Part shown: positions 52,438 through 58,652 of the stretch, one piece after another
How the letters are laid out: every line of letters starts with the position of its first letter
Position numbering within the stretch: the stretch's first letter is position 1
Assembly (NCBI RefSeq): GCF_030540825.1
Contig: NZ_JAUOEO010000001.1
Coordinates: forward strand, 407,001 to 471,000
DNA length: 64,000 nucleotides
Direction of reading: 5' to 3'
Source: Flavivirga spongiicola
Lineage (GTDB): Bacteria; Bacteroidota; Bacteroidia; Flavobacteriales; Flavobacteriaceae
Translations under genes and position numbers: made by a program
The notes under the pieces: model-generated
Databases searched by the model: none
The model's input: only the letters and a program-made list of their open reading frames with translations
What the model was told of the DNA's origin: nothing

Positions 52438-52453
52438 TACCCACTATTGGGTA
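52438..52453 (+). promoter_or_regulatory. NarL-type 7-2-7 operator, copy 1
   Basis: TACCCAC-TA-TTGGGTA is two inverted heptamers of the NarL type (TACYYMT-like) with a 2-bp spacer. It starts 39 bp before the near-consensus -7 box CATATTTG (52477-52484), so its centre falls near -43 of the expected start, an activator position. The same operator with the same spacing occurs at 56895. It controls the operon starting at 52513. Confidence 0.7.
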
Positions 52454-52476
52454 TGTTTTTATATAAAACCATACTA

Positions 52477-52484
52477 CATATTTG
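52477..52484 (+). promoter_or_regulatory. -7 box of the trypsin-like protease operon
   Basis: CATATTTG differs from TAnnTTTG at the first base. The ATG of the first gene is 28 bp further. A weak box fits dependence on the activator site upstream. Confidence 0.45.
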
Positions 52485-52512
52485 CAATATTAATCAACTT
52501 AATCCAACCCTC

Positions 52513-52854
52513 ATGAAAAAATTAATCTCACCCGTCACCATGTTTCTATTTGGCATTATTGCTTTCGCTGCGATTATGATGATTACCCATAAAATGGATC
52601 TTAACTTCGAAAAAGACCCCCACTTTTGGTTTTATCGGGTATTAACAGCTCTTGCTGCAGCTTCCATTAGTATTTCTATACCTGGAATGATTTCCTTAAA
52701 TAGTAGACCCGATGGAAATCCTATCACACGTTTGAACGCACAAGGTGCCAGTGAACCTAATCCAATGTCCCTCTTAGAAAAGGAACCTACCATTAGTGCT
52801 TCTGGTGCTATTGCCGTGTTTGTATTAGTTTATTTGTTTAACCCTTTGGTTTAA
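52513..52854 (+). CDS. Small membrane protein, first gene of the protease operon (113 aa)
   Basis: I start at ATG 52513 (MKKLISPVTMFLFGIIAFAA), not the upstream TTG at 52432, whose frame runs through the operator and promoter. Hydrophobic segments lie at about 7-24 (signal anchor), 44-62 and 94-110. Between the last two is a polar stretch with SRPDGNPITRLNAQGA. No known family. It ends 4 bp before the trypsin-like gene, which suggests it works with that protein at the membrane. Confidence 0.7.
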   Translation: MKKLISPVTMFLFGIIAFAAIMMITHKMDLNFEKDPHFWFYRVLTALAAASISISIPGMISLNSRPDGNPITRLNAQGASEPNPMSLLEKEPTISASGAIAVFVLVYLFNPLV

Positions 52855-52858
52855 AATT

Positions 52859-53866
52859 ATGAAATATTCAGATGCAATAGATTTTTTCCCAAGTTTTGAA
52901 AAATTTGTTTTTGATAATATCGATAATGCTACATATGTAGCCATCGTAAAAAAAGATGTATCAAATCCAGATAATGATGATTATTATTTTGAAGTTAGAC
53001 ATGGAAGCAAAACAATTAACATAGGTGCTCCCAGTCTTTTTCGAAATAAAAAATTCAATGAGATTGTCAACCAATTTCCAATTAAAAAAGAAGATTTTGA
53101 TATTGATTATGATGATAATATTACTTTGCAGAACAGAACGTGTAAAAATAATTACAACCCTTTTCTTTCAAAATTAGAACAACCAAACGGAGGTTGTAGT
53201 ATAGCTAATAATAAATTTATGTACTTAAGTGGTACTTTAGGCGCTTCATTTAAATTAAAAAACCAAAATTCAATATTTTTCATATCCAATTTTCATGTTC
53301 TTGCCGATTTTAATTCTGATAGATTCGAAACTATAATGCATCCAAGCAATCATGATGTAAATACCCTCAAACCATATATAGAATATAATCCTATTGGTAC
53401 ACTATACTGGTACTGTATTGATGATTATATAGATGCTGCAATTGCTGTAGCTAATTGTAATTCAAAAATAAATTCTGGAATTAGAGCAAGTAACAATCTT
53501 AGCATAAAAAGCATCATTAAACCCAAAATAGGCATGAACGTAATTAAATGTGGAAGAACTTCTGGACTATCTAAAGGTGTTATACGTTCTACTATATGTT
53601 CTGTAATGATTAAGGATAAACGTATAACCAATAATTCCAGTGGTTATAGGATCTTCAAAAATCAAATATTAACAAATTGTATGTCGTTGCCTGGTGATTC
53701 CGGCTCTCTATTAATGACCGATGATGGGCATCCATTAGGTCTTACATTTGCTGGAAATCAAAAAACAGCGTCTTTCCATAATAATCTACAATACATTTTT
53801 GATAAGCCTAAAATTTTCTGCAATGCCAGATCAATGCCCCCAATCAAACTTGACAAATTTTTATAA
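52859..53866 (+). CDS. Cytoplasmic trypsin-like serine protease (335 aa)
   Basis: The chymotrypsin-fold catalytic triad is visible: H146 in FFISNFHVLAD, D192 in DDYIDAAIAVA and S281 in SLPGDSGSLLM. About 110 residues precede the protease domain (begins near GGCSIANNKFMYLSGTLGAS) and form a separate alpha/beta part. There is no signal peptide or membrane segment, so it should act in the cytoplasm, which is uncommon for this fold outside regulatory or conflict systems. It lies in a three-gene operon under a NarL-type operator, just upstream of a two-component system. Its target is unknown. Confidence 0.75.
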   Translation: MKYSDAIDFFPSFEKFVFDNIDNATYVAIVKKDVSNPDNDDYYFEVRHGSKTINIGAPSLFRNKKFNEIVNQFPIKKEDFDIDYDDNITLQNRTCKNNYNPFLSKLEQPNGGCSIANNKFMYLSGTLGASFKLKNQNSIFFISNFHVLADFNSDRFETIMHPSNHDVNTLKPYIEYNPIGTLYWYCIDDYIDAAIAVANCNSKINSGIRASNNLSIKSIIKPKIGMNVIKCGRTSGLSKGVIRSTICSVMIKDKRITNNSSGYRIFKNQILTNCMSLPGDSGSLLMTDDGHPLGLTFAGNQKTASFHNNLQYIFDKPKIFCNARSMPPIKLDKFL

Positions 53867-53882
53867 CTTTAAAACAAATATT

Positions 53883-54299
53883 ATGATTCAAATTTTAACA
53901 GACAAAGTAGATTCTTACTTATTATTTGATAGTAAACTATTTTCGCTTCATGGAGAGTTTACTAAATGGGATAATGGTAAAGTATTAGAAATTAAGTTCA
54001 AAATAACTAAAGGAGAACGCTCATATCAAATAGAAGATGTTAATTTCTGTGTAGTTCATAACAGACTGGAAATTCACATATTTAAGAATGATAACATGAT
54101 ACAAGATACCTTTACGGCCACTTATAAAAATCTAAAAGGAATGTCTCTAAAATCAAAAGAGATAAGAAATTTAGATTTTATAGACTACTTTAAAGATCCA
54201 AACCCAGTGCTTGAAGACTGTTATACTCCTAATCAAAAAGGAAATGGTGGCATTGAACCAGAAGTAAAAAAAGGCAATATTGTTGTTGGACACCCATAA
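53883..54299 (+). CDS. Uncharacterised beta-rich protein of the protease operon (138 aa)
   Basis: The ATG at 53883 follows the protease stop by 16 bp; the longer frame from 53748 would overlap the protease gene by 119 bp and is rejected. The first 90 residues alternate hydrophobic and polar residues (YLLFDSKLFSLHGEFTKW, LEIKFKITKGE, RLEIHIFKND), typical of a beta barrel or sandwich. The tail NGGIEPEVKKGNIVVGHP is polar. No signal peptide. No family recognised; it may be a substrate or inhibitor of the neighbouring protease, but this is only inference from position. Confidence 0.65.
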   Translation: MIQILTDKVDSYLLFDSKLFSLHGEFTKWDNGKVLEIKFKITKGERSYQIEDVNFCVVHNRLEIHIFKNDNMIQDTFTATYKNLKGMSLKSKEIRNLDFIDYFKDPNPVLEDCYTPNQKGNGGIEPEVKKGNIVVGHP

Positions 54300-54387
54300 T
54301 AATGCTATTTTAAGAATCGTTATAATTTATTGTTTATTTTCAAGAACCAGAATTATTATCTATTTTACAAGATAAACTAACATAACA

Positions 54388-56271
54388 ATGTATCGAAGTT
54401 ATAACCTCTTGTATCGCAACTTTTTGAAAATTATAACTTTATTTTTCTTTTCTATATCGCTCTGTTATTCACAGGGCGATTCTGATTCTACTTATTATTA
54501 TTTTCACCACACCACCCCAAAGAGTAAAGTATTATTAAAAATCAACTCTTTTAAAGACCATTCGTTTGGTGAAGATTATTATAAACTTATCTATTTTAGT
54601 AAATTAAAATATTTAGATTCAATATCTAAATACCTAAAGAGAACAGTTGAAAGCAAAAACATTCCTGAAAATAAATCTGCTAAAATCCTATATTTTCAAG
54701 GATTCATGAATAAGTTATCAGATAATGATTCTCTATTTTTAAAATATAGTAACCTTGCTTATAAAAAAGCTACAATCATAAATGATAGTCTGACAGTACT
54801 ATACAGCCTATCGGCATTATCGCAATCATATGATTACACTAATGATTATCCATACAATCAAGCATATCTTAATTTATTAGAAAAAAAAGCAAACGAATAT
54901 AATAGTTCGCATTTTAAAAAAGTTCATCAATTTTTAAATGGAAATTATTATCTATTTCGAGATAACGTAAAAAAAGCATTGAGTAATTACCACAATCTTT
55001 TAAAAAATAAGTTTGATAAAAAAGATAGCACATTAATTTTACCTGCATATAATAGTATGGGAGTTTTATTTCAAACTATAAAAAAGAATTCAGATTCGGC
55101 AATCTACTATTATAAGAAAAAAATTGAATTTATAAATGCTAGTCCCAGCCATCAAAGTGACAAAAGCTATTTCAATACCTATATAAATATTGCTAATTCA
55201 TACTTATCAAAAAATGACTTAAACAATGCCGAATCATATTACATCAGGGCTAGTAATATAAATATTGAAGAAAACAAGATATTCTATAAATCTGTTATTG
55301 AAAGTAATCTTTCAAAACTATATAAAAAAAAGAAAAACTTTGAATTAGCGTTTTCCCACCTTAAGAATTATAATAAATTTAATGATAGCTTGAAAAAAGA
55401 AAAACAACGAATAGCAATAGCCAATATACAAGAACAATACGACAACGAAAAACTACGCGCCGACAACCTGGAAATAGAATCCAAACGAAAACAAAATCAA
55501 AATTTACTAATAGGCGCTTTAATCTTTATACTCTTTGGAGGCATCACCGCTTATCTCATTCAAAAAAACACCAAACGCAAACAAAAACTAGCCGAGCAAG
55601 AAAAAGTCTTAGAAACCCAAAAATTAGCAACCGTTTTAAAAGAACAAGAACTCATGAGTATTGATGCCATGATAGAAGGGCAAGAAAAAGAGCGTCAGCG
55701 TATAGCCAATGACCTTCATGACGATCTAGGTGGATTAATGGCAACTGTTAAACTTCATTTTAATGTACTTAAAGAGAAACAAACTCCTGAACTATTTAAT
55801 AAAACTAATATATTACTTGATGAAGCATACCAAAAAATACGCTCTATTGCCCATGCTAAAAATTCTGGTGTAATTGCCAAACAAGGCTTGCTTAAAGCCA
55901 TTCAAAACATGGCTGAAAAAATTTCCACTTCGAACAAAATTTCTATTGACGTCATAGACTACGGCCTAGAAGACCGTTTAGAAAACAGTTTAGAATTGAC
56001 TATTTTTAGAATTGTTCAGGAATTAGCAACCAATATTATTAAACATGCCGAGGCTACGGAAGCTACCATACATTTAACCAACCATGATGAAAGCTTAAAT
56101 ATTATGGTTGAAGATAATGGCAAAGGGTTTAATCCAAGCCAAGTAACCACTAAAAATAAAGGTATGGGAATTAGTAGCATCGATAAACGTATTGAACACT
56201 TAAATGGCACTATGACTATAGAATCTGAGCCTAGTAAAAGCACCACGATAATAATAGACATTCCCTTATGA
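54388..56271 (+). CDS. TPR-containing sensor histidine kinase, NarX/DesK type (627 aa)
   Basis: A signal peptide ends near CYSQ. Residues 30-360 form a periplasmic sensor of helical TPR-like repeats (IYYYKKKIEFINASP, NAESYYIRASNI). A membrane helix (about 373-392, LLIGALIFILFGGITAYLI) leads into a coiled coil and the HisKA_3 domain with H444 in RQRIANDLHDDLGG. The ATPase domain has IVQELATNIIKHAEA (N box) and VEDNGKGFNPS with KGMGISSIDKRI. Its stop overlaps the response regulator start by 4 bp (ATGA), so the two are coupled. Confidence 0.94.
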   Translation: MYRSYNLLYRNFLKIITLFFFSISLCYSQGDSDSTYYYFHHTTPKSKVLLKINSFKDHSFGEDYYKLIYFSKLKYLDSISKYLKRTVESKNIPENKSAKILYFQGFMNKLSDNDSLFLKYSNLAYKKATIINDSLTVLYSLSALSQSYDYTNDYPYNQAYLNLLEKKANEYNSSHFKKVHQFLNGNYYLFRDNVKKALSNYHNLLKNKFDKKDSTLILPAYNSMGVLFQTIKKNSDSAIYYYKKKIEFINASPSHQSDKSYFNTYINIANSYLSKNDLNNAESYYIRASNINIEENKIFYKSVIESNLSKLYKKKKNFELAFSHLKNYNKFNDSLKKEKQRIAIANIQEQYDNEKLRADNLEIESKRKQNQNLLIGALIFILFGGITAYLIQKNTKRKQKLAEQEKVLETQKLATVLKEQELMSIDAMIEGQEKERQRIANDLHDDLGGLMATVKLHFNVLKEKQTPELFNKTNILLDEAYQKIRSIAHAKNSGVIAKQGLLKAIQNMAEKISTSNKISIDVIDYGLEDRLENSLELTIFRIVQELATNIIKHAEATEATIHLTNHDESLNIMVEDNGKGFNPSQVTTKNKGMGISSIDKRIEHLNGTMTIESEPSKSTTIIIDIPL

Positions 56272-56891
56272 TACGACTCGCTATAGCAGAAGATCATCAA
56301 TCATTAATTGATGGTATACAATTACTCTTAGAATATGAAGACGGTATAACCATAGTTGGTACTGCAAACGACGGTATTACTTTACTAGAAATCGTTGATC
56401 GTAAGCAACCAAGTGTGGTATTAACCGATATTAGAATGCCAAAAATGGATGGTATTGAAGCGACCAAACAAATCAAAAAAAAGCATCCACATATCAATGT
56501 GCTCGCCTTTACTATGTTTGAGCAAATAGAAGCCATTCAGCAAATGATGCAAGCTGGGGCTTCTGGTTATATTCTAAAAAATTCATCCTTAAAAGAAGTA
56601 TATCATGCTATTTTAAGTGTTTCAAAAGGAGAAACTTATTTAGATGCCAATATTAATACGAATGTTTTAAATTCAAAATCAGATATTAAAACAAAAGGTG
56701 TATTAACAAAACGGCAAATAGAAATTCTAGAATTGATTGCTCAAGGAAAAACCTCTAGAGAAATTGCGGATTTGCTTTTTATTGGTATTCACACTGTTGA
56801 CACCCACCGTAAAAATATGGTACGTATATTAGGACTTCAGGGGAAAGGTGAATTACTTCGATATGCTCTAGAAAAGAAATATAAGTTTTAG
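56268..56891 (+). CDS. NarL/FixJ family response regulator (207 aa)
   Basis: The receiver domain has the acidic pocket E8-D9 and phosphorylation site D54 in TDIRMPKMDG. The LuxR-type helix-turn-helix (about 143-200) has LTKRQIEILELIAQGKTSRE, IADLLFIGIHTVDTHRKNM and a conserved tail GKGELLRYAL. It is the cognate partner of the kinase just upstream. The operators at 52438 and 56895 have the geometry expected for this protein family. Confidence 0.95.
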   Translation: MIRLAIAEDHQSLIDGIQLLLEYEDGITIVGTANDGITLLEIVDRKQPSVVLTDIRMPKMDGIEATKQIKKKHPHINVLAFTMFEQIEAIQQMMQAGASGYILKNSSLKEVYHAILSVSKGETYLDANINTNVLNSKSDIKTKGVLTKRQIEILELIAQGKTSREIADLLFIGIHTVDTHRKNMVRILGLQGKGELLRYALEKKYKF

Positions 56892-56894
56892 ATT

Positions 56895-56910
56895 TACCCA
56901 GTATTGGGGA
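56895..56910 (+). promoter_or_regulatory. NarL-type 7-2-7 operator, copy 2
   Basis: TACCCAG-TA-TTGGGGA repeats the operator at 52438 with two changes (base 7, C to G, and base 15, T to G). Both are followed by ATGTTTTTA and both start 39 bp before the -7 box (here 56934-56941). It lies just after the response regulator gene and before the beta-barrel gene. Confidence 0.7.
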
Positions 56911-56933
56911 TGTTTTTAAGTCATAAGGATTAT

Positions 56934-56941
56934 TAGGTTTG
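56934..56941 (+). promoter_or_regulatory. -7 box of the beta-barrel gene
   Basis: TAGGTTTG is an exact TAnnTTTG, 22 bp before the ATG at 56964. No -33 TTTG is present where the operator would place the activator, as expected for an activated promoter. Confidence 0.6.
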
Positions 56942-56963: not shown

Positions 56964-57782
56964 ATGAATAAGAAAAGCGGTTTAATCATAGTCTTTTTAT
57001 TATACTATTCAACAACAATTTTTTCACAAGAAATTAAAACCACCTACAGATTTGACATCCCTGTATACAATAAAGGGATACAATATAGAGAAGGACATAA
57101 AGTAAAAATTATAGACACATCAGACAACTCTATAAAATTTGTTTATATTAAGTTTAAAAAAGAAAAAGTCTCACAAACTATTTATAATGCCCAAAGCAAA
57201 CTTAAAACATTAAATGACATTTATTATTACGACAATACATTTAAATCTTTAGACAACAATGATGAAACAGAAAAAATACAAGTACATACTTTAGCTAAAT
57301 CTACTTTCTTAAAGGCAACTTCTAGATATTATTACTATCATAGGTTTAAAGGTGTTAAAGCTGGTCTTTTTACTGTTCCATTCAAGCTAAGATTTGATGA
57401 TTTTGATTTTGAACAGAATGTAAATTTGGGTATGAGTGTAAGCTTTAGATTTAGATTGAACAGAAAAGTAGATAATGATTGGCTAATCTCACCTACTCTT
57501 GGCATTGGTCTGTCTACAATTAAATTAAATCCAAAAAACAGTAATCTCATAGAAGGTGAAGATTCTAATAGGTCTGCTAGTGCTTTTAGTTTATCCGGTG
57601 GAATTCTTTTAGAGTTAAAGGAAACTATTAATTTAAGTTTCCAATATGGGTTTGATTTTTTGGGTAATGACGATAAAGATATTGATTGGAAATACAATAG
57701 ACAACCTTGGTTAGGCATTGGGATAAATATTGGATTTCCCATTTCCAAGAATAGTGACCAAAACGAAAATGACAAAAATTAA
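56964..57782 (+). CDS. Probable outer-membrane beta-barrel protein (272 aa)
   Basis: The signal peptide MNKKSGLIIVFLLYYSTTIFSQ is followed by about 100 residues of mixed strands, then from about 125 amphipathic strands typical of a small barrel (NLGMSVSFRFRLN, LISPTLGIGLSTI, FSLSGGILLELKE, LSFQYGFDFLG, WLGIGINIGFPI). The sequence does not end in an aromatic residue; a polar tail (NSDQNENDKN) follows the last strand. It is preceded by operator copy 2, so the kinase-regulator pair probably controls it. Confidence 0.75.
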   Translation: MNKKSGLIIVFLLYYSTTIFSQEIKTTYRFDIPVYNKGIQYREGHKVKIIDTSDNSIKFVYIKFKKEKVSQTIYNAQSKLKTLNDIYYYDNTFKSLDNNDETEKIQVHTLAKSTFLKATSRYYYYHRFKGVKAGLFTVPFKLRFDDFDFEQNVNLGMSVSFRFRLNRKVDNDWLISPTLGIGLSTIKLNPKNSNLIEGEDSNRSASAFSLSGGILLELKETINLSFQYGFDFLGNDDKDIDWKYNRQPWLGIGINIGFPISKNSDQNENDKN

Positions 57783-57823: not shown

Positions 57824-58210
57824 ATGACTGCCATTCAAGAAATTTTAAAAACCATAAATGATATAAAGAAAAAGAGTCGCCTACTTTCAAAGAAGGACAT
57901 ACATACCCTTTTAGAAGCTACAAAATCCATCACCAAACATAAGGAGCTCATAAACTCTTTGATATTCCTTTATACAACTCAAGATCATAATATTCAAAAA
58001 AAAACAGTGCTCTTAACTAAACGAGAAGTACAAATTCTACAACATATAGGCTATGGAAAAAACACAAAACATATTGCTACACTTCTAAACCTAAAGAGCT
58101 CAACCATTGAAACACACCGAAAAAATATTAGAAAAAAATTAGGTCTTGTCGGAAAAGGGAAACTCATTCAATATGCCATTTTAAATAATTTAAGGATATC
58201 TGGTTCTTAA
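57824..58210 (+). CDS. Receiver-less LuxR-type DNA-binding protein (128 aa)
   Basis: Residues 1-58 are helical, without a phosphorylation site. Residues about 62-125 form a LuxR-type helix-turn-helix (LTKREVQILQHIGYGKNTKH, IATLLNLKSSTIETHRKNI) with the tail GKGKLIQYAI. This closely resembles the response regulator encoded 0.9 kb upstream, including the THRKN and GKG[EK]L blocks. It follows the beta-barrel gene by 41 bp and is probably co-transcribed. It could compete for, or amplify action at, the same operators. Confidence 0.85.
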   Translation: MTAIQEILKTINDIKKKSRLLSKKDIHTLLEATKSITKHKELINSLIFLYTTQDHNIQKKTVLLTKREVQILQHIGYGKNTKHIATLLNLKSSTIETHRKNIRKKLGLVGKGKLIQYAILNNLRISGS

Positions 58211-58525: not shown

Positions 58526-58612
58526 ATGAAAATACTAATTATAATTAGCATCCTTATTGTTGTTAATTTAATTCTTTTGACTTTTAGTGTTAACAAAAGA
58601 ACAGACCCTTAA
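58526..58612 (+). CDS. 28-residue hydrophobic peptide
   Basis: The frame MKILIIISILIVVNLILL continues TFSVNKRTDP and stops at TAA 58612. It is a single membrane helix with a short polar tail. The ATG follows an A-run (AAAAAATG), usual for flavobacterial starts, and a strong terminator begins inside the last codons. A transcript of less than 200 nt with this peptide is plausible; alternatively the region is a small RNA. Confidence 0.5.
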   Translation: MKILIIISILIVVNLILLTFSVNKRTDP

Positions 58613-58631
58613 TTAAGGGTTTGTTCTTTTG
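58594..58631 (+). terminator. Terminator over the end of the 28-codon gene
   Basis: CAAAAGAACAGACCCTTAA and TTAAGGGTTTGTTCTTTTG are inverses with one mismatch. The following gene is convergent (minus, ending at 58653), so it can serve both directions. Confidence 0.8.
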
Positions 58632-58652
58632 TTTGTTTATATTCTAAGTAAT

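Follow-up and report, generated by a model that had tools for sequence, protein, structure and literature searches.

A putative NarL-type operator at fixed promoter distance in a kinase-regulator locus of Flavivirga spongiicola and its relatives

LuxR-type two-component regulators are numerous in Bacteroidota, but to our knowledge few of their operators have been described. The heptamers recognized by NarL of Escherichia coli follow a TACYNMT-like consensus. Among NarL-activated promoters, ogt1052 carries a single 7-2-7 site centred at −44.5, 32 base pairs (bp) from the −10 element (PMC9314961), and the sites of napF and yeaR are given at −40/−49 and −38/−47, respectively (PMC4549865). Here we describe a 64,000-nucleotide stretch of the Flavivirga spongiicola genome (assembly GCF_030540825.1, contig NZ_JAUOEO010000001.1, positions 407,001 to 471,000 of the forward strand; hereafter the window), which contains two palindromes of the NarL type, each made of two inverted TACYNMT-like heptamers around a 2-bp spacer. 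Judged from the DNA sequence, both are very probably operators through which the response regulator encoded at 56268-56891 activates its own operon, a neighboring gene pair for a beta-barrel-like and a LuxR-type protein, and five distant operons. We assign this regulator as the reader because of the conservation of the site, its fixed geometry, its co-occurrence with the regulator gene, and its co-variation with the recognition helix.

Two palindromes with a common promoter geometry

A preliminary description of this DNA had reported twin palindromes followed by a common sequence and placed at an identical 39-bp distance from a −7 box. Both palindromes were recovered, each with TGTTTTTA directly 3′ of it, and at both promoters the start of the operator precedes the start of the box by exactly 39 bp:

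52438..52453, + strand: operator 1, TACCCAC-TA-TTGGGTA (TACCCACTATTGGGTA), centre predicted near −43.5
52477..52484, + strand: −7 box of promoter 1, CATATTTG, 5/6 match to TAnnTTTG, offset 39
56895..56910, + strand: operator 2, TACCCAG-TA-TTGGGGA (TACCCAGTATTGGGGA), beginning 3 bp past the regulator stop codon
56934..56941, + strand: −7 box of promoter 2, TAGGTTTG, 6/6 match to TAnnTTTG, offset 39

The claim of two −7 boxes therefore holds for their position, but only the second box is a complete match, the first (CATATTTG) agreeing in just five of six letters. The sigma-A −7 box TAnnTTTG of Flavobacterium psychrophilum spans −12 to −5 (PMC9723704), and both palindromes would therefore be centred near −43.5. 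Both window promoters have the TAnnTTTG element at −12 to −5 that characterizes sigma-A promoters of Bacteroidota; transcription is predicted to start near 52489 and 56946, leaving short leaders to the ATG codons at 52513 and 56964. A sigma-70 promoter scan, which is not designed for Bacteroidota, stayed near background (49 hits versus 37.8 in shuffles).

The palindromes are unlikely to be chance matches, as the preliminary description had held. The window contains three matches to TACCCN6GGGNA (two of them being both strands of one site), whereas 0.12 would be expected. A weight matrix trained on 59 sites, all from other genera, gave scores of 41.2 for operator 1 and 34.0 for operator 2 (training range, 14.1 to 43.5; median, 36.9) versus at most 8.9 in three crude two-base-block shuffles of the window. 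Genome-wide, the exact form TACCCNNTANNGGGKA (TACCC-NN-TA-NN-GGGKA) was found at seven places, with 6 forward and 6 reverse matches versus 0 and 0 in the reversed control, and is thus not frequent at random positions; a high frequency there would have spoken against the proposal:

Contig C1, seven exact places: 459438, 463895, 3436115, 4212065, 4239830, 4247256, 4691994

All seven places are intergenic, and at six of them offset 39 is occupied by a −7 box that agrees in five or six of six letters, the exception being 4691994. The looser TACCCN6GGGNA gave 14 forward and 12 reverse matches versus 3 and 7 in the control. When one mismatch was allowed genome-wide, the counts (15/13 versus 15/16) showed no excess, and the signal therefore resides in the exact form. 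Two kinds of candidate site in the same genome were rejected: around seven one-mismatch near-matches the weight matrix gave no degenerate site scoring at least 14, and those TACCC matches without the central TA that were inspected sit in genes or have no box.

The distant sites lie upstream of a subtilase gene (L015), of a gene for a trypsin-like protein (L018), of an operon whose second product looks barrel-like by eye (L018), of an operon without Pfam names (L017), and of a gene for a lamin-tail-domain protein and, next in order, one in which an HExxH motif was recognized by eye (L020). The operators at C1 positions 4212065, 4239830, and 4247256 (L017 and L018) fall within 35 kb of one another and may mark an effector-rich island.

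The site and the regulator across Flavobacteriaceae

A first set comprised 40 regulator loci (34 family genomes and six further members of the genus). Between −5000 and +2500 of the regulator start, 43 sites with at least 11 of 12 matching letters were found at 27 of these loci, while each of 19 other arm permutations gave two or fewer. The second set comprised 80 of 517 GTDB loci encoding a relative of the regulator, divided by identity into 30 orthologues (at least 54%) and 50 paralogues (at most 44%). The orthologues had 30 sites at 18 loci (permuted arms, at most 1), and the 50 paralogue loci had two, within the permuted-arm background of up to three. One locus (L182) duplicates G118 and was left out of later counts. 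The conserved palindromes at 27/40 and 18/30 loci bear out the proposed 7-2-7 geometry. Most often a site comes first at these loci, followed in turn by variable protein(s), the kinase, the regulator, a further site, and a variable protein; in many genera sites flank the regulator gene on both sides. A site placed upstream, as operator 1 is, was also present at the regulator loci of G002, G003, G004, G005, G007, and G011, and of 33 sites located downstream in relatives, 22 fall between +620 and +716, counted from the regulator start.

Among 70 nonredundant regulator-locus sites, with the extended consensus AAWATACCCanTAntGGGTATkTT, a TAnnTTTG box (at least 5/6) stands at offset 39 exactly in 56 and at 38 in 3; the next most frequent offset, 16, accounts for 9 sites. 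This constancy supports the earlier suggestion that a position near −43 suits activation. TTG at −33-like positions was not enriched (24 of 70 sites versus 23.8 in shuffled letters), and activator-dependent promoters therefore fit. The regulator might instead bind and repress, keeping polymerase from promoters that would otherwise be active, as the operator adjoins the −33 region and E. coli NarL is a repressor at frdA, where its 7-2-7 site lies close to the start (PMC4549865). Repression fits less well than activation with the single spacing to the −7 box (56/70) and the lack of TTG enrichment, and the centres of NarL-activated promoters near −43 to −44 match the window sites (PMC4549865, PMC9314961); we consider repression unlikely.

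The −7 boxes of these relatives' sites differ in their first letter, which is C in 16 and T in 9 of the 37 operon-front promoters and T in 27 of the 33 promoters behind the regulator. The frequent C at the beginning of the operon-front box suggests that the autoregulated promoter is maintained as the weaker one.

The palindromes could also be read as intrinsic terminators, that is, a hairpin with a T-run rather than a DNA site. A terminator scan flags operator 1, RNA folding gives −11.6 kcal/mol for operator 1 and −5.8 kcal/mol for operator 2, and operator 2 immediately follows a stop codon. Such hairpins, however, would not account for an arm fixed as TACCC, with permuted arms nearly absent, nor for a −7 box at a fixed offset, and the distant copies precede unrelated genes. 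This explanation appears extremely improbable, though operator 2 may have a second use in weakly terminating the regulator transcript. Compensatory arm changes were dropped as a test of hairpin versus DNA site, since selection at 11/12 matches excludes double changes and the Tenacibaculum form described below is itself compensated.

Across the family, we screened 149 genomes of 148 genera and called the regulator at E ≤ 1e-55; it was present in 34. The exact site TACCCNNTANNGGGTA occurred in 23 of these 34 genomes (57 places) versus 11 of the 115 regulator-negative genomes (13 places), and its reversed control gave 8 forward matches in the former and 13 in the latter. Of the 57 exact places in regulator-positive genomes, 56 were inspected; 38 of these had a 5/6 −7 box at offset 39 on one strand, compared with a mean of 1.4 at the other offsets from 25 to 59. 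Seven of the 13 places in regulator-negative genomes are low-scoring and fall in reading frames (G012, G021, G022, G101, G127, G142, and G180), and one, in G145, adjoins a regulator fragment at a contig end.

The operator and the regulator also change together. No TACCC site was found at nine orthologue loci of the Tenacibaculum/Polaribacter clade. Instead, TACCT-N6-AGGTA was present in 10 exact copies at seven of the nine loci, at equivalent places (the operon front and behind the regulator) and with clear boxes at 38 or 39, while 29 other arm permutations gave at most one copy each. The 60 other orthologue loci, which include L195, L196, L199, and L202, had 40 exact TACCC-N6-GGGTA sites at 28 loci and two TACCT forms. 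Genome-wide, seven Tenacibaculum/Polaribacter genomes had 22 forward matches to TACCTAN4TAGGTA versus 4 in the control, and TACCCNNTANNGGGTA was absent from the same seven. Compared with most of the other 60, the regulators of this clade differ where the recognition helix begins (173 A and 175 T) and also at positions 164, 193, 194, and 198. This co-variation is the sequence evidence that argues best for the 56268 regulator as reader of the sites. Together with the co-occurrence and the sites at regulator loci, it lends comparative support to the two controlled units, and to their link with this regulator, that the preliminary description had put forward.

At three loci of this clade (L198, L205, and L206), a further TACCT-type palindrome lies at −57, −65, and −63 of the regulator start, respectively, either within the kinase gene or at its end, and TATATTTG stands at offset 38. 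The regulator gene may have a promoter of its own there.

Several observations weigh against the proposed pairing of regulator and operator. There is no site at 11/12 matches at 13 of the 40 loci of the first set and no exact site in 11 of the 34 regulator-positive genomes. The co-occurrence (Fisher p = 4.8e-11) ignores kinship and is uncorrected for phylogeny. At 18 of the 56 exact places, including 4691994, a 5/6 box at offset 39 is missing; some of these places score low or fall in reading frames (e.g., L270, L278, and L280). Five of the 13 places in regulator-negative genomes are promoter-like (three in G087, and G093 and G141), with no orthologue found. Within the genus, the regulator is present in 8 of 12 genomes, and G006 and G008 have one promoter-like site each without it. 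Finally, the Tenacibaculum/Polaribacter co-variation may represent one evolutionary event.

The promoter-like sites of G087, G093, G141, G006, and G008, where no orthologue was found, would favor another, unlinked transcription factor as the reader, the regulator gene being merely one of its targets. The stretches around these sites contained no regulator homologue except a 28% receiver match (L289). An unlinked factor is nevertheless quite unlikely, as the sites flank the regulator gene in many genera and co-occur with it, are at background beside the 50 paralogues, and change with the recognition helix of the regulator. None of the rival explanations accounts jointly for the fixed offset, the co-occurrence, and the co-variation. 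Operators also adjoin a LytS-type kinase gene (L258:2399-3451, G135) and a receiver-domain match (L289:5151-5495, G093), suggestive of connections with further two-component systems.

Gene content of the locus and of the regulon

The genes around the two operators, and the hairpin that follows them, are as follows:

52513..52854, + strand: small protein of 113 amino acids, first gene of operon 1; membrane-spanning look by eye, no Pfam match
52859..53866, + strand: serine-protease-like protein, Nal1_C (Pfam PF25819, 27.9 bits; cut-off, 26.1)
53883..54299, + strand: fast-evolving protein of 138 amino acids ahead of the kinase; 14 to 27% identity to six counterparts, no Pfam match
54388..56271, + strand: sensor histidine kinase with HisKA_3, HATPase_c, and weak TPR matches (Pfam)
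56268..56891, + strand: NarL/LuxR-family response regulator, proposed operator reader (Pfam Response_reg and GerE)
56964..57782, + strand: beta-barrel-like outer-membrane protein of 272 amino acids (Pfam OMP_b-brl, 22.4 bits, under the cut-off of 28.7)
57824..58210, + strand: orphan LuxR-type helix-turn-helix (HTH) protein without a receiver domain (Pfam; HTH compared with that of the regulator)
58592..58633, + strand: strong terminator-like hairpin past the barrel/LuxR pair, 19-pair stem, −25.6 kcal/mol

The regulator (207 amino acids) joins a receiver domain (PF00072, E = 1.3e-27) to GerE (PF00196, E = 1.5e-14); a receiver and a LuxR-type HTH in one protein, with the gene for a HisKA_3-type kinase overlapping, place it in the NarL/FixJ family. 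The full Pfam list of the kinase reads HATPase_c, HATPase_c_2, HisKA_3, TPR_12, and TPR_8, with HisKA_3 at 27.5 bits (cut-off, 24). Structure modeling of the 138-amino-acid protein failed (mean predicted local distance difference test score, 46.6). By eye, ilvE-like and MazG-like genes adjoin the module on one side and a gene for a peptidase-like protein of 679 amino acids on the other; flank genes of corresponding size and order were found at part of the other regulator loci. The slot of the serine-protease-like protein holds mutually related proteins in three other genomes (L142:8051-9181, L151:8125-9132, and L053:5586-6602). A WCWxxC-like motif is present in two of these proteins, which resemble papain by eye. 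Such replacement would amount to an exchange of cargo at a fixed place.

The gaps within operon 1 are 4, 16, and 88 bp, the kinase and regulator genes overlap, and the scan flagged no terminator-like site on the + strand between 52457 and 58592. The genes from 52513 to 56891 would thus form a single transcript, and operator 1 probably drives the whole unit. The two operators do flank the kinase-regulator pair, as the preliminary description had it, but rather than standing apart from the controlled genes, the pair therefore probably lies inside the first controlled operon.

Binding, phosphorylation, the direction of control, the operon transcript, and the signal are what we infer. The sensor kinase encoded just upstream would phosphorylate the 56268 regulator, and a phosphorylated dimer would bind to either 7-2-7 palindrome, centred near −43.5, in the manner of E. 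coli NarL and activate sigma-A promoters that have a −7 box and no recognizable −33 element. Operator 1 would turn on the protease-kinase-regulator operon, in positive autoregulation, operator 2 would turn on the barrel/LuxR pair, and five further operons of the genome would respond through the same site.

The orphan LuxR-type protein encoded at 57824 might instead be the main reader of the palindromes, or a feedback competitor for them. Its HTH is 49% identical to that of the regulator over 57 residues, and its gene itself lies behind operator 2, so the protein could compete with the regulator for the same operators. It is, however, encoded in just 5 of the 12 genus genomes, located after the regulator gene (including the window, G005, G007, and G011), and is missing from G003, G004, and G010, all of which have regulator-locus sites. 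We regard the orphan protein as very improbable as main reader; it may act as a modulator.

The content of the proposed regulon was surveyed by a Pfam scan of 73 hand-chosen proteins near sites, a subset of the site-downstream genes with no matched background. The names found were subtilases, trypsin, a NucA-type nuclease, and DUF4231 and YLATT membrane proteins, as well as an MACPF protein barely over the cut-off and an AAA ATPase whose OLD-like match is weak. Not effector-like were Kelch, PD40, and FG-GAP proteins, a hydrolase, an LRR surface protein, ruvB with a cytochrome P450, and a LytS-type kinase; about half of the scanned proteins had no name. In G109 (L281:5034), an operator scoring 40.4 with a TACATTTG box at 39 lies 190 bp upstream of ruvB and the cytochrome P450, an odd member if the regulon consisted of effectors only. 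PADLOC, run on 10 individual target proteins, matched three to its models (subtilase/IetS, RT-protease, and caspase, with a caspase-like part in L069) and gave no match for the window protease.

Because about half of the proteins are unnamed, non-effector types are present, and PADLOC matched 3 of 10, a role of the regulon in defence or cell death is only a guess. Tentatively, the two-component system, at a largely fixed locus of Flavobacteriaceae, might act as master switch for a rapidly changing set of effectors (trypsin-, subtilase-, caspase-, and papain-like proteases, membrane or pore proteins, nucleases, and outer-membrane barrels) in a signal-induced defence or cell-death response. New effectors would join simply by gaining the 16-bp operator at its 39-bp offset to a −7 box. 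In Tenacibaculum/Polaribacter, the operator would have changed from CCC to CCT in step with the regulator; we see this whole scenario as possible rather than probable. The regulon offers a handle on unexplained protease and membrane-protein genes: whatever activates the 56268 regulator should show when these genes are used. The natural co-variation of operator and regulator makes a test of specificity straightforward.

Comparison with known systems

The label "NarL-type" suits the protein family and the operator but not the system as a whole, which is not NarX/NarL. NarL (1a04) and the window regulator belong to the same family (E = 3.7e-21), with TVDTHRKN and TVKVHVKH as the aligned recognition helices of the window regulator and NarL, respectively. 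Unlike NarX and NarQ, the window kinase has weak TPR matches and no nitrate-sensor domain found by Pfam, and no nitrate or nitrite respiration gene was seen among the scanned site-downstream proteins, which do not include every downstream gene. The closest solved full-length regulators are of the VraR type of Staphylococcus and Enterococcus (5hev, E = 7.6e-32), nearer than NarL, a likeness that is a structure-database match and does not by itself show orthology. VraR, which responds to cell-envelope stress, has another operator sequence, another type of kinase, and other targets.

The peptidase conflict systems of PMC7159879 (VMAP, NucA-trypsin, and others) share trypsin, subtilase, caspase-like, NucA-type nuclease, and DUF4231/YLATT proteins with the regulon. 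Unlike in those systems, the targets here belong to dispersed operons that share one operator, and the likeness lies in shared protein types; the term "two-component" has 0 occurrences in the main text of that paper (PMC7159879). No description of the present regulator/operator system was recognized in the open-licence PMC literature, which is weak evidence of absence.

The operator itself is closest to that of E. coli NarL in its inverted heptamers and 2-bp spacer, for which the engineered NarL site TACCCCTAAAGGGGTA is an example (PMC4549865). The distance from centre to box, 31.5 bp here, is 32 bp at ogt1052 (PMC9314961). Unlike NarL promoters, those of the window have a Bacteroidota-type −7 box without a −33 element, and their targets are proteases and envelope proteins. 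The same switch, at a fixed promoter distance, recurs in many relatives ahead of protease, surface-protein, and other genes. The operator offers a clear recognition sequence and a rigid promoter geometry, the latter like that of E. coli NarL despite the different promoter type.

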